A stretch of 64,000 nucleotides of DNA from Rubrivirga sp. SAORIC476. Its GTDB lineage: Bacteria; Bacteroidota; Rhodothermia; Rhodothermales; Rubricoccaceae. Below the pieces are notes generated by a model that worked only from the letters and a program-made list of their open reading frames with translations, ran no database searches and had not been told where the DNA came from. Location of the stretch: contig NZ_MVOI01000003.1 of the NCBI RefSeq assembly GCF_002283555.1, forward strand, positions 1,290,798 through 1,354,797, given 5' to 3'. The position numbers were made by a program, and so were the translations under genes. Shown here piece after piece: positions 7,951-57,434 of this stretch (the first letter of the stretch is position 1; every line of letters starts with the position of its first letter).

Positions 7951-9546
7951 ATGGCCCTCACCGAGCAGGAACAGATCCGCCGCGACCACCTCGCCGCCCT
8001 CCGCGACGCGGGCGTCGACCCGTACCCCGCCGTCGAGTGGGCCACGACCCACGGCGCGGCCGCCGTCCTCGACCAGTACGACGACGCCCGGCACGACCCC
8101 GAGGCCGAGGGCACCACCCCGCTGCGCGTGACCGTCGCCGGGCGGATGCTCACCAAGCGGGTCATGGGCAAGGCCGCCTTCTTCCACCTCGCCGACGAGT
8201 CGGGCCAGATCCAGATCTACGCCAAGCGCGACAACCTGCCCGAGGGCTTCTACAACGAGGTCTTCAAGCGACTGCTCGACCCCGGCGACTGGCTCGGCAT
8301 CGAGGGCACCGTCTTCCGGACGCGCATGGGCGAGGTCTCCATCGAGGCCGACCGGCTGGTGCTGCTGAGCAAGTCGCTCAAGCCGCTGCCCGTCGAGAAG
8401 ACCGTCACCGACGAGGAGACCGGCGAGACCCGGACCTTCAACGAGGTTTCGGACCCCGAATTCCGCTACCGCCAGCGCTACGCCGACCTGGCGCTCCACC
8501 CCGAGGTGCGCGAGGTGTTCAAGACGCGCCACCGGATCGTCCGCACCATCCAGCACTTCCTGGACGACGCGGGCTACGTCGAGGTCGAGACGCCCGCGCT
8601 CCAGCCGTTGTACGGCGGCGCCGCCGCGCGCCCGTTCACGACGCACCACAACGCGCTCGACATGCCGCTCTTCCTCCGCATCGCGGACGAGCTGTACCTC
8701 AAGCGCCTGCTCGTGGGTGGCTTCGAGGGCGTCTACGAGATCGCCAAGGACTTCCGGAACGAGGGCCTCTCGCGGTTCCACAACCCGGAGTTCACCATGC
8801 TGGAGCTCTACGTCGCGTTCAAGGACTACGACTGGATGATGGCGCTCGTAGAGCGGATGCTGGAGGCCGTCGCCGTCGCCGCGGTGGGCTCCACGGACGT
8901 GCCGCGCACGGTGGACGGGACGACGCACACGCTCGACTTCTCGGCCCCCTTCCGCCGCGTCCCCATCTTCGACGCCATCGCGGAGGCGACGGGCCACCAG
9001 CTCTACGACGCCGAGGCGGGCACGGTCGCCGACCGCGACACCATCGCTGCGGTGGCGAAGGAGGTCGGGATCGACGTGGACCCGAGCATGGGCGCGGGCA
9101 AGCTCATCGACGAGATCTTCGGCGAGGCCGTCGAGCCGACGCTGCTCCAACCGACGTTCATCACCGACTACCCGGTCGAGCTGTCGCCGCTCGCCAAGCG
9201 CCACCGGTCGAAGCCGGGGCTCGTGGAGCGCTTCGAGCTGATCGCGGGCGGCAAGGAGCTGTGCAACGCGTTCTCGGAGCTCAACGACCCACTCGACCAG
9301 CGCGCCCGCTTCGACGACCAGGTCTCGCTCGCGACCGCAGGCGACGACGAGGCCGTCAACACGGTCGACGAGGACTACCTCCGGGCGCTGGAGTACGGCA
9401 TGCCGCCCGCGGCCGGCCTCGGCGTCGGCATCGACCGGCTGGTGATGGCGATGACCGACCAGCCGTCCATCCGCGACGTGCTGCTGTTCCCGCTGCTCCG
9501 CCCGGAGACGTCTGCGTCCGCCGACGACGCGCCCGAGGCGGGATGA
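7951..9546 (+). CDS. lysS: Lysyl-tRNA synthetase (class II)
   Basis: A 531-residue class II lysine-tRNA ligase, which charges tRNA-Lys in the cytoplasm. An N-terminal OB-fold anticodon-binding domain (about residues 45-160, including RVTVAGRMLTKRVMGKAAFF) precedes the catalytic core. Motif 1 runs through the TRHRIVRTIQHFLDDAGYVEVETP region. Motif 2 is FRNEGLSRFHNPEFTMLE. Motif 3 is GLGVGIDRLVMAMTD. The length is slightly above the usual 490-510, with a short acidic C-terminal tail. The ATG at 7951 gives MALTEQEQIRRDHLAALRDAG, a normal family N-terminus. It is a single gene with about 140 bp of leader, in which one more copy of CCCGCCTCGG lies at 7885. Confidence 0.97.
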   Translation: MALTEQEQIRRDHLAALRDAGVDPYPAVEWATTHGAAAVLDQYDDARHDPEAEGTTPLRVTVAGRMLTKRVMGKAAFFHLADESGQIQIYAKRDNLPEGFYNEVFKRLLDPGDWLGIEGTVFRTRMGEVSIEADRLVLLSKSLKPLPVEKTVTDEETGETRTFNEVSDPEFRYRQRYADLALHPEVREVFKTRHRIVRTIQHFLDDAGYVEVETPALQPLYGGAAARPFTTHHNALDMPLFLRIADELYLKRLLVGGFEGVYEIAKDFRNEGLSRFHNPEFTMLELYVAFKDYDWMMALVERMLEAVAVAAVGSTDVPRTVDGTTHTLDFSAPFRRVPIFDAIAEATGHQLYDAEAGTVADRDTIAAVAKEVGIDVDPSMGAGKLIDEIFGEAVEPTLLQPTFITDYPVELSPLAKRHRSKPGLVERFELIAGGKELCNAFSELNDPLDQRARFDDQVSLATAGDDEAVNTVDEDYLRALEYGMPPAAGLGVGIDRLVMAMTDQPSIRDVLLFPLLRPETSASADDAPEAG

Positions 9547-9622
9547 GCGACGCGCGGACACTCGACGCGTGACGTGCGTAGAACGCGCTGAACCGACTCG
9601 AATTCCCAGCCCCGCCCGCCTC

Positions 9623-10342
9623 GTGATCGCCACCCCGCCCGCCGACCTCGCCCCGTTCCCCGGCCTCACCGAGGAGGGCTTCAGCTTCCTCAAGAGCCTC
9701 AAGCGCAACAACGACCGCGAGTGGTTCCAGGCCCGGAAGGAGACCTACCACGACGAACTCCGCGACCCGATGCGGATGCTCGTCGCCGACCTCAGCCGGC
9801 GCCTCCCCGACCGCGGCATCCCGCTCTCCGGTGACCCCAAGCGCGCCGTCTTCCGCATCTACCGCGACACGCGCTTCTCGAAGAACAAGGCCCCCTACAA
9901 GACGCACGTGGCCGCGGCGCTCCACCGCAACGGCGTCAAGGGCTCGCCGGGCGCGCTCTACATCCACGTCGAGCCCGGCGCCAACCGCGTCGGTGGGGGC
10001 TTCTGGCGGGCCGACCGCGACTTCCTCCGCCACTGGCGGACGCGGCTCTCGGAGGACCCGGACACGTTCCTCCGCATCGTCGAGGGCGTCGAGGGCGCAG
10101 GCCTGAAGATGGAGACCGCGGGCAGTCCGCTCACGCGCATGCCGCGCGGCTTCGAGGACCAGCGCGAGAACCCGGCCGTCGACTACTTCCAGTGGCGCGG
10201 CGGCTTCGCCGCCCTCCACGAGAGGATCGCGGACGAAGACGTGGCCTCGCCGGCGTTCGCCGACCTCGTGTTGGAGACCGCCGAGACGGTCCGCCCGCTC
10301 TTGGAATACGGCTGGTCCATCGCCGACGCCGCGGCCAAGTAG
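9623..10342 (+). CDS. DUF2461/TIGR02453 family protein
   Basis: A 239-residue cytoplasmic protein of the DUF2461 family. The conserved stretches are GFSFLKSLKRNNDREWFQARKE near the N-terminus, then KRAVFRIYRDTRFSKNKAPYKTH, and GALYIHVEPGANRVGGGFWRAD. The biochemical function of the family is not known. The GTG at 9623 is chosen because it starts shortly before the conserved region; another GTG at 9569 would add 18 unconserved residues. The gene follows lysS closely and could be read with it. It ends just before a palindrome and a hairpin. Confidence 0.85.
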   Translation: MIATPPADLAPFPGLTEEGFSFLKSLKRNNDREWFQARKETYHDELRDPMRMLVADLSRRLPDRGIPLSGDPKRAVFRIYRDTRFSKNKAPYKTHVAAALHRNGVKGSPGALYIHVEPGANRVGGGFWRADRDFLRHWRTRLSEDPDTFLRIVEGVEGAGLKMETAGSPLTRMPRGFEDQRENPAVDYFQWRGGFAALHERIADEDVASPAFADLVLETAETVRPLLEYGWSIADAAAK

Positions 10343-55144: not shown

Positions 55145-55148
55145 CTTG
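55142..55148 (+). promoter_or_regulatory. TAnnTTTG-like -7 element overlapping the rsmI stop
   Basis: TAGCTTG overlaps the TAG stop of rsmI and lies 21 bp before the ATG at 55170. It is identical to the element at 52913. Confidence 0.35.
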
Positions 55149-55169
55149 TCGGCCTCGACGCTCCCCGCC

Positions 55170-55733
55170 ATGCGACTGCTCCTCCTCGCCGCTCTCGCCG
55201 CCTCCGCCTGCGCCCCGACGGCGCCCGCGCCCGCCTCGGCCGACTCGTCGGCGGCGGCGATAGCCAGCGCCCCGGCCGACTCGCTCGCCGACCGTACCGA
55301 GGTGGAGGCGGCCGTCGCGGCCACCATCGAGCAGGAGGGCATCCACGTGGTCCACTTCTGGGCGCCGTGGTGCGGCAACTCGCGCGCGGAGTTCGAGGGC
55401 GGCCTCTACGAGGTCGTCGAGGCACACCCCGACGTGACGTTCTCGTTCGTCACCATCTGGACCGACGGCCGCGACAGCGCCGACCGCCTCGCGCGCTACG
55501 GCATCGAGGCGTCCGACCGCGTCTTCGTCTACGGGCAGCCCGACCGCGGGCCGTCGGCCGACCGCGACCTCCGCCGCCGCTCCTTCCTCGGCCTGCCGCT
55601 CAGCTGGACGCCGACGACGTGGGTCTTCAACCGCGAGGGCACGCTGGCCTATGCGTTCAACTACGGCGAGGTCTCGAACGAGATGCTGGCGCTGGCCATC
55701 GAGCACGCCCGTGACGAGTGGATGCACGAGTAG
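55170..55733 (+). CDS. Thioredoxin-fold lipoprotein with CxxS active site
   Basis: A 187-residue protein with a lipoprotein signal (MRLLLLAALAASAC, lipobox ASAC, Cys14), an Ala/Ser/Asp-rich linker and a thioredoxin-like domain. The active-site segment is VVHFWAPWCGNSRAEFEGG: the second Cys of CxxC is Ser, so it is monothiol. The cis-Pro region is SWTPTTWVFNREGTLAYAFNYGEVS. A CxxS site cannot cycle as a normal disulphide reductase but can form mixed disulphides. The next gene is a cytosolic paralogue with the same site. It probably sits in the periplasm or outer membrane. Confidence 0.8.
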   Translation: MRLLLLAALAASACAPTAPAPASADSSAAAIASAPADSLADRTEVEAAVAATIEQEGIHVVHFWAPWCGNSRAEFEGGLYEVVEAHPDVTFSFVTIWTDGRDSADRLARYGIEASDRVFVYGQPDRGPSADRDLRRRSFLGLPLSWTPTTWVFNREGTLAYAFNYGEVSNEMLALAIEHARDEWMHE

Positions 55734-55764
55734 CAATCAGGTGTCAGGAAACAGGAATCAGCCG

Positions 55765-56199
55765 ATGCCCCCCATGATCCCGTCCCTCTCCGCCGTCGAC
55801 GCGGCGCTCCGCGAGACCGTCGCCGCCGACGGCGTCCACGTGGTCCACGTCTGGGCGCCGTGGTGCGACAACTCGCTGAACGAGCACGCGCCCGTCTGGT
55901 CCGACCTCGCCCGCCTCGGAGCCGACTCGGTGACCTTCGTGACGGTCTGGAACGAGGGCGAGAGCGGTGCCGACACGCTGGCCGAGAGCGGCGTCACGGG
56001 CGTCCGCGAACTGGTCGTCGAAGGCCCCAAACCTGAGAAGCCGGACCGGCGGCTGACGCTCCTCGGCCTGCCCGTCTCGTGGATCCCGACCACCTGGGTA
56101 TTCAACCGCAACGGGCTCCTGGCGACGGCCTTCAACTACGGCGAGGTGTCGGCCGAGCGGCTCGCCGAGGCGGTCGAGGGCGCGCGGAGCGGTTGGTAG
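55765..56199 (+). CDS. Thioredoxin-fold protein with CxxS active site, signal-less paralogue
   Basis: A 144-residue thioredoxin-like protein without a signal peptide. The active site is VVHVWAPWCDNSLNEHAPV, again CxxS, and the C-terminal half repeats the paralogue's LGLPVSWIPTTWVFNRNGLLATAFNYGEVS almost residue for residue. The middle part has VTFVTVWNEGESGADTLAESGV. With the lipoprotein before it, it forms a tandem pair from an evident duplication, one copy secreted and one retained in the cytoplasm. The ATG at 55765 is used; a second ATG follows three codons later. The two genes are 31 bp apart. Confidence 0.78.
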   Translation: MPPMIPSLSAVDAALRETVAADGVHVVHVWAPWCDNSLNEHAPVWSDLARLGADSVTFVTVWNEGESGADTLAESGVTGVRELVVEGPKPEKPDRRLTLLGLPVSWIPTTWVFNRNGLLATAFNYGEVSAERLAEAVEGARSGW

Positions 56200-56217: not shown

Positions 56218-56892
56218 CTACGCCAGCCGCTGCACGCCCGCCGCGGAGACGAACGCCGCCAGCTTGTCCGCGTCCAGCGCGCCATCGGTGCGGACGCCCG
56301 TGCACAGGTCGACGCCGAACGGGCCGACGACCCGGACCGCCTCGGCGACGTTGCCGGGGATCAGCCCGCCCGCCAGGATCACGGGCACGCCGAGTTGCTC
56401 CCGGATGGTCTTCGACACGCGCCAGTCGTGGACGCGGCCCGTGCCGCCGAGCGTCTTGACGGCCGCCGTCGGGTCGCCCGAGTCCAGCAGCACCGCATCC
56501 ACGTGGCGCGCGACCCGCTCGGCCTCGGCCAGCGCCTCGGGGCCGGTCACGTGGACCACCTGCCAGAGCGACCGCCCCGGCAGCGCCACCCGGAGCCGCG
56601 CGTAGACCGCCGGCCCGACGCCGTCGACGATCTGGACGGCCGAGACGCCCGCAGCGTCGGCCTGCCGGGCGATGGTGTCGGCGTCGGTGGCGCTCGTCAG
56701 CAAGACCGACATGACGGGAGGCGGCGTGGCCCGCGCGATCTCGGCGATGGCCTCGTCCGGGATCGTGCCCGGCCCGCTGGGCATCGGACCGACGAGCCCC
56801 ACCGCATCGGCCCCGAGGCGGACGGCGAGGCGCATCTCCTCCACGGAGCGGATGCAGCAGACCTTGAGGCGGGGGAAGGCGGGAGCATTCAT
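56218..56892 (-). CDS. Divergent phosphoribosylanthranilate isomerase-like protein
   Basis: A 224-residue TIM-barrel protein related to TrpF. The catalytic Cys is in LKVCCIRSVEEM (Cys12; family KxCGI), the catalytic Asp in AVLLDSGDP, and phosphate-binding loops in VILAGGLIPGNVAEAV and GVDLCTGVRTDG. The substrate-binding Arg motif of genuine TrpF (SPRxV) is missing: the corresponding loop reads LVGPMPSGPGTIPDE. The CC pair and MPSGPG loop suggest a separate subgroup with another substrate. No other trp gene is in the window. It starts at ATG 56892, overlapping the stop of the rhodanese gene (ATGA), so the two are coupled. Confidence 0.75.
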   Translation of the reverse strand: MNAPAFPRLKVCCIRSVEEMRLAVRLGADAVGLVGPMPSGPGTIPDEAIAEIARATPPPVMSVLLTSATDADTIARQADAAGVSAVQIVDGVGPAVYARLRVALPGRSLWQVVHVTGPEALAEAERVARHVDAVLLDSGDPTAAVKTLGGTGRVHDWRVSKTIREQLGVPVILAGGLIPGNVAEAVRVVGPFGVDLCTGVRTDGALDADKLAAFVSAAGVQRLA

Positions 56893-57434
56893 GGCAGGTC
56901 GGCACGTCGCTCCGGCACCAGCAGCCGCCCCCACACGGCGTCGTACGGGTGAACGGCCTCCACCTCGCGCCCGTCGCGGACGACCGGGCGGCCCTCGTTG
57001 GCCCACTCGAAGATGGAGCCCCGCAGGTTCTCGACGTGCGCGAAGCCCGCCTCCCGCAGCCGCGCCGTCACCGTCGCCGAGCGGACGCCGACGGAGCAGT
57101 AGACCACGATCTCGCGCTCCGGGTCGACGTCCGCCAGCGCTGCCGCGAGGGCGCCCGCCTCGGCGTCGGGGTCGACGTGCCGGGCACCGGGAAGGTGCGA
57201 GACCGCGAACTCGGCCTCGGTGCGGGCGTCGAGGAGGAGCGGCGGGTCGGGCGCGTCGAGGCGGTCGGCCAGCGCAGCCGTCGTGGTCGAGGGGAGGTCC
57301 GGAAAGCGGGACGCGAGGTCCCGGTCGACCGCGCGCCACGCCAGCGAGTCGGGCCGGTAGGCGCGGTCGGACCGGAGCCAGACGACGGCGCCGACGGCGA
57401 CGGCCAGGAGCACGAGCGGGCGGAGGAGGCGCAT
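56889..57434 (-). CDS. Membrane-anchored rhodanese-domain protein
   Basis: A 181-residue protein with one N-terminal hydrophobic segment (MRLLRPLVLLAVAVGAVVWL) acting as signal or anchor, and a rhodanese domain (about residues 55-155). Key stretches are LLLDARTEAEFAVSHLPGARHVD and the active-site loop VVYCSVGVRSATVTARL with the catalytic Cys, then VENLRGSIFEWANEGRPVV. Rhodaneses transfer sulphane sulphur or act in sulphide and thiol chemistry. It is co-transcribed with the TrpF-like gene through an ATGA overlap. A single CCGAGGCGGG decamer at 57481 lies in the region shared with the divergent DUF2723 gene. Confidence 0.85.
   Translation of the reverse strand: MRLLRPLVLLAVAVGAVVWLRSDRAYRPDSLAWRAVDRDLASRFPDLPSTTTAALADRLDAPDPPLLLDARTEAEFAVSHLPGARHVDPDAEAGALAAALADVDPEREIVVYCSVGVRSATVTARLREAGFAHVENLRGSIFEWANEGRPVVRDGREVEAVHPYDAVWGRLLVPERRADLP

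Follow-up and report, generated by a model that had tools for sequence, protein, structure and literature searches.

What does a trpF-like gene do when it lies away from the other trp genes and its start codon overlaps the end of a rhodanese gene? The question is raised by the window, the whole 64,000-nucleotide stretch of DNA that was analysed here, in which a minus-strand ORF of 224 aa (P0001) runs from an ATG at 56892 to a stop codon at 56218-56220. A first-pass annotation had picked out the motifs KVCC, MPSGPGTI and LLDSGD in this protein and an ATGA overlap with the rhodanese gene, all of which are present in the ORFs (KVCC with C12-C13, MPSGPGTI at residues 37-44, LLDSGD at 135-140). We refer to the proteins that share the altered loop as the MPSGPG family. 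The features of the locus are listed below, with the equivalent residues of Thermotoga maritima TrpF (TmTrpF) in brackets.

56218..56892, minus strand: TrpF-like (PRAI-fold) protein of 224 aa, MPSGPG family member (ORF, Pfam, alignment and tree)
56854..56859, minus strand: codons of C12-C13 in KVCC (TmTrpF Cys7-Gly8; alignment)
56767..56784, minus strand: MPSGPG loop after strand 2 (TmTrpF Y31-R36), with Gly42 in place of Arg36 (alignment)
56476..56490, minus strand: LLDSG (TmTrpF LLDTK; Asp126 corresponds to D137; alignment)
56428..56430, minus strand: codon of H155 (TmTrpF Phe139; alignment)
56290..56304, minus strand: C197 to R201 at the end of strand 8 (TmTrpF S180 to E184; alignment)
56889..57434, minus strand: rhodanese of 181 aa with a hydrophobic N-terminus (ORF and Pfam), judged a local neighbour and not a partner

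The TrpF-like protein and its invariant residues

P0001 belongs to the PRAI superfamily by Pfam (PF00697, 77.2 bits with a cut-off of 22.7). It matched 12 NCBIfam models for TrpF or TrpC/F but stayed below the cut-off of each, its best score with a TrpF-type equivalog being 116.4 bits versus a cut-off of 215. The AlphaFold model (mean pLDDT 86, with block means of 74 and 75 at residues 31-50, where the MPSGPG loop lies, and values < 50 at 143-153) is nearest to TrpF (1nsj, Z 27.4, rmsd 1.8 over 203 residues), while the best non-TrpF family reached Z 20.5. No close relative of the family has been solved among PDB entries, of which the best scored 90.7 bits with the family profile, compared with at least 301.8 bits for the 35 genome matches.

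Like TrpF (EC 5.3.1.24; T. maritima structures 1nsj and 1lbm), the family has the fold, the equivalents of Cys7, Asp126 and Asp178 and the glycine-rich phosphate loops. It differs from TrpF by Arg36 to Gly within MPSGPG, Gly8 to Cys, Phe139 to His, Ser180 to Cys, Glu184 to Arg and Lys102 to Gln, and by insertions near strand 3 and after strand 6. The methanofuran/methanopterin biosynthesis enzyme MJ1099 (MfnB; 4u9p, 4rc1) has a similar barrel (Z 19.1-19.4) but is 15-17% identical to P0001, far below TrpF; P0001 also weakly matches NCBIfam NF002574 (15.9 bits), which covers the family of MJ1099. Phosphoribosyl isomerase copies that lie away from his and trp clusters have been described before, for HisA/PriA and the PriA subfamilies SubTrpF2 and AdeK (PMC13055916). 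SubTrpF2 and AdeK are HisA homologues, however, whereas the MPSGPG family is nearest to TrpF by both sequence and fold.

We aligned 51 members of the family, leaving out L080, which shares its protein accession with L079, and L165, which is the same locus as L003. The MPSGPG loop is unchanged in 51/51, as is the second Cys (C13) in place of the TrpF glycine, so that neither of these first-pass observations reflects chance. Equally invariant are K10, T66, Q111, H114, D137-S138-G139, LGGTG (148-152), H155, W157, D195, C197 and R201. Of C13, MPSGPG (37-42), T66, H114, D137, H155, C197 and R201, the canonical TrpF group retains only D137. Comparison of 49 canonical sequences with the 51 family members gave fixed changes (49/49 versus 51/51) of Gly8 to Cys13, Ser34 to Gly40, Arg36 to Gly42, Phe60 to Thr66, Glu184 to Arg201 and Lys190 to Leu206, and near-fixed changes of Lys102 to Gln111 (Lys in 48/49 canonical sequences), Phe139 to His155 (Phe in 48/49) and Ser180 to Cys197 (Ser in 45/49). 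The position of H114 is occupied by mixed residues in canonical TrpF, with His in 10/49.

Common to both groups are K10, Q87, D137, G175, G176 and D195, together with Cys12 in 50/51 family members; in TmTrpF terms, Lys5, Cys7 (50/51), Asp126, Asp178 and the phosphate-loop glycines are retained. Cys7 and Asp126, the catalytic residues of TrpF, have their equivalents in 50/51 and 51/51 members, respectively, and both are found in P0001. The one exception carries Arg at position 12 (L010, the same locus as L039) and retains C13 even so; this weakens the view that a Cys7-type base is strictly needed, and makes that need less than absolute. In contrast, Arg36, which contacts the anthranilate carboxylate in TrpF, is Arg in 49/49 canonical sequences and Gly in 51/51 family members. 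Its loss suggests that the aglycone pocket has been rebuilt and the phosphosugar end retained.

Spread of the family and independence from tryptophan synthesis

The family is patchily distributed. It occurs in 12 of 60 genomes, the window's own included, with identities of 51-100%; further PRAI matches in this set are 25-37% identical, except for a partial one (45% over 73 residues). One further genome (G028) was scored as a non-carrier because it holds two matching fragments only (G028:C159:2507-2691; 66% and 58% identity), probably the remnant of a lost copy. In the phylum sample, 35/296 genomes carry the family at E 1e-40. L004 comes from a Lysobacterales genome, and in the phylum to which that genome belongs the count was 3/398, that genome being one of the three. 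Named carriers include MAGs of Ignavibacteriae, Lysobacterales and Betaproteobacteria and plasmids of Sphingomonas aliaeris, Sphingobium cloacae and Acaryochloris marina, and one member lies on an IMG/VR contig. All three plasmid copies bear the annotation phosphoribosylanthranilate isomerase; through such labels, automated pathway prediction could assign a tryptophan step to an organism that does not have it.

An unrooted tree of 110 proteins placed the 51 family members, 49 canonical TrpF proteins and 10 proteins of a third PRAI lineage each on one side of a branch, with supports of 100/99, 98/97 and 100/99 respectively. Two joins within the MPSGPG family, each with support of 100/98, cross phyla: L041, from the family of genomes that includes the window's, pairs with L169 of the Lysobacterales phylum, and L045, from the same order as the window, pairs with the Sphingomonas plasmid copy L079. 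These strongly supported joins across phyla point to horizontal transfer as the way in which the family spread. By sequence, its members form a distinct subfamily of the known PRAI/TrpF superfamily, with a substrate that is probably new. We found no publication on the family among the matches listed in a search of the open-access literature.

Several of the mobile copies have a context of their own. The Sphingomonas and Sphingobium plasmid copies (L079 and L080, at ~9004-9681) share one protein accession; each has a DUF4403 gene as its neighbour, and recombinase and VapC toxin-antitoxin genes lie close by. The phage-like contig L078:1-9746 encodes a terminase large subunit, a replication initiation protein and an HNH nuclease by PHROGs; between its terminase and HNH genes lie the family gene and a gene that looks cyclase-like by eye, possibly as phage cargo. 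A search of phage records with the L078 family protein returned nine records, the best of 33% identity, and the window protein had no match in PHROGs at E 0.001. The genome of an Ignavibacteriae MAG (G327) holds two family copies (L165 and L166).

Is the TrpF-like gene simply the trpF of its organism? The window's own assembly (G000) contains two PRAI matches at E 0.001, the second of which is a canonical trpF (G000:C3:684079-684678, 161.9 bits) with TrpC directly upstream and TrpA ~2 kb downstream, as found by family searches, and with trpD and trpB also near by, as judged by eye. The TrpF-like gene is thus not the only trpF in its genome, a point on which the first-pass annotation had staked its reading, and the statement that it is not near any other trp gene is correct, the trp cluster lying elsewhere.

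To place this in a wider context, we searched 46 genomes for PRAI proteins, 45 of them carriers of the MPSGPG family. The family member was the sole PRAI match in 5/45 carriers (G108, G285, G147, G303 and G008), and at least one further match was present in 40/45, so that most carriers retain some TrpF. TrpC (PF00218) and TrpA (PF00290) were then sought in 11 of the 45 carriers, namely eight suspected cases, chosen for an absent or weak second PRAI match, and three controls. Seven of the eight suspected carriers had neither TrpC nor TrpA: G108, G147, G303 and G221 (each 100% complete), G266 (99%), G285 (98%) and G008 (88%). Both were present in the eighth (G291) and in the three controls. Among the five carriers with a single PRAI match, three are rated 100% complete, one 98% and one 88%; G221 and G266 encode another divergent PRAI protein besides the family member.

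Gene position gave the same picture. TrpC or TrpB relatives were near 1/52 family loci versus 48/48 canonical loci, although the family stretches were up to 18.6 kb each (642 kb in total) and the canonical ones ~3.6 kb or less each (169 kb), the latter being drawn from the best matches and not a random sample. The one exception among the family loci (L104 of G266) has a TrpB match of 32% identity ~0.8 kb away. Hence, neither position nor co-occurrence links the family to the trp pathway, as either would be expected to do for TrpF. The gene is nevertheless under purifying selection: dN/dS was 0.057 between G108 and G285, two trp-less genomes of one genus, and 0.206 between the window gene and that of its closest relative, G003. 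CdRP, the product of TrpF, is consumed by TrpC (PMC5919458), and TrpF activity would be without known use in the carriers that lack TrpC. Considering the trp-less carriers, the rarity of TrpC or TrpB neighbours and the low dN/dS in the trp-less pair, tryptophan synthesis is not the role of the MPSGPG family. Strict conservation over phyla, plasmids and a phage-like contig, combined with retention in genomes that lack the trp pathway, points to an uncharacterized single-gene function of real selective value.

Neighbouring genes and candidate functions

The rhodanese gene ends in the ATGA at 56892-56889, where its stop overlaps the ATG of the TrpF-like gene. Its product is a rhodanese by Pfam (72.6 bits, cut-off 22.2), with a YCSVGVRS motif and a hydrophobic N-terminus by eye; it resembles NCBIfam NF045521 ('rhoda_near_glyco'), scoring 109.6 bits, under the cut-off of 145, and its other flank is a TMEM260-like (O-mannosyl-transferase-like) gene. 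Such a glyco-gene context could explain the position of the rhodanese. The first-pass annotation had seen in this arrangement a hint of a functional tie between the two proteins, which the family loci do not bear out. A rhodanese relative is present in 2/49 of them, those of the window and of G003, and is adjacent in the window only; in G003, where the TrpF-like protein is 86% identical, the relative (71% identity) lies ~0.9 kb upstream. We therefore rejected a partnership with the rhodanese, and the ATGA overlap looks like a local accident of gene order.

All-against-all clustering of the neighbours of 49 family loci, once the family and its antisense shadow ORFs were set aside, revealed no gene at a fixed place beyond a syntenic run in 7-8 loci (with ClpX-like and Trm112-like genes, among others, as named by eye), which come mostly from one family of genomes. 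The widest other clusters, spanning 9 loci in one case and 5 in the other (ABC-transporter-like), are at scattered positions. Likewise, 28 selected nearby ORFs read by eye had no common theme. Neither the clustering nor these ORFs gave an independent hint of a pathway or a recurring redox or sulphur gene. Convergent with the TrpF-like gene, the window contains two tandem plus-strand ORFs (55146-55733 and 55651-56199) that look thioredoxin-like, with Pfam Thioredoxin scores (20.7 and 19 bits) that fall short of the 23.5-bit cut-off and with a single-Cys motif, WAPWC[GD]NS.

What reaction, then, might the family catalyse? We consider its members a distinct and apparently isofunctional group outside tryptophan synthesis, and most likely a stand-alone aldose-ketose isomerase of a ribose-5-phosphate derivative, a reading to which we give an even chance. 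An Amadori-type isomerization is suggested by the retained isomerase core. The enzyme would work alone, and its substrate would be a ribose-5-phosphate derivative other than PRA. The retained glycine-rich loops (strands 7 and 8) would bind the phosphate, and the retained Asp (D137) would share the acid-base chemistry with the strand-1 thiols C12 and C13. The anthranilate-binding Arg of TrpF is replaced within the MPSGPG loop, and H114, H155, C197 and R201 may line a new pocket that accepts a different substituent at C1. The comparison of sequences also favours the first-pass proposal of a TrpF relative whose changed substrate loop probably serves another phosphosugar.

Four other readings deserve weighing. 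That the protein is a redundant TrpF isozyme, still making CdRP, would fit its Pfam PRAI score well above the cut-off, the near-universal Cys7 and Asp126 equivalents and a fold nearest to TrpF; we nonetheless regard it as very improbable, because Arg36 is Gly throughout, all 12 matched NCBIfam models score it below their cut-offs (116.4 versus 215 bits at best), and the gene lies outside trp clusters and is kept, at a dN/dS of 0.057 in one pair, in genomes where the lack of TrpC leaves CdRP without known use. We give even less credence to a coupled thiol or persulphide pair with the rhodanese, for which the ATGA overlap and the relative in G003 speak: the two genes are apart in G003, no rhodanese relative was found in the stretches of the other 47 of 49 family loci, and the rhodanese itself resembles a family named for its glyco-gene neighbours.

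A more serious contender, if still rather unlikely, is a thiol- or metal-dependent phosphosugar enzyme in which C13 (end of strand 1) and C197 (end of strand 8) together with H114 and H155 form a metal site or a redox or persulphide pair, the reaction being no longer a plain acid-base isomerization. All four residues are invariant, as expected of such a site, at positions where canonical TrpF has Gly (49/49), Ser (45/49), His in 10/49 only and Phe (48/49), and C13 is kept where position 12 is Arg; this Arg and the invariance of C13 and C197 make a thiol or metal centre possible. On the other hand, the isomerase Asp and the phosphate loops are retained, and no redox or sulphur gene recurs among the neighbours. 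The bolder version, a widespread and horizontally moving family annotated as TrpF that carries out an undescribed phosphoribosyl reaction with C13, C197, H114 and H155 as a metal or thiol centre at the barrel mouth, is one that we put forward tentatively, as doubtful. Finally, an enzyme that repairs or detoxifies spontaneous ribose-5-phosphate adducts of amines would explain single-gene transfer and the absence of partners. It would agree with a stand-alone, patchy gene that also occurs on plasmids and a phage-like contig, and with the retained isomerase core, but its substrate is putative and it is a special case of the stand-alone isomerase rather than a test of it; we judge it improbable.

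A third PRAI lineage

The third lineage of the tree (L152-L161) comes from ten genomes (e.g. G134:C138:60336-60959), all of which also carry the MPSGPG family and nine of which have a canonical TrpF. It is joined to the MPSGPG family with support of 98/97, to be read with a long-branch warning, and shares T66, H155 and S160 with it. Unlike that family, it has Ala at the strand-1 Cys, Gly at C13, Glu at the Arg36 position and His at the position of C197 (Ser180 of TmTrpF), each in 10/10 members. No conserved neighbour was found in its 10 loci. The two diverged PRAI lineages together offer a natural case of substrate change on the TrpF barrel. Further divergent PRAI proteins unlike the MPSGPG family are encoded in G266 (L162), one of the genomes with neither TrpC nor TrpA, and in G130 (L163).
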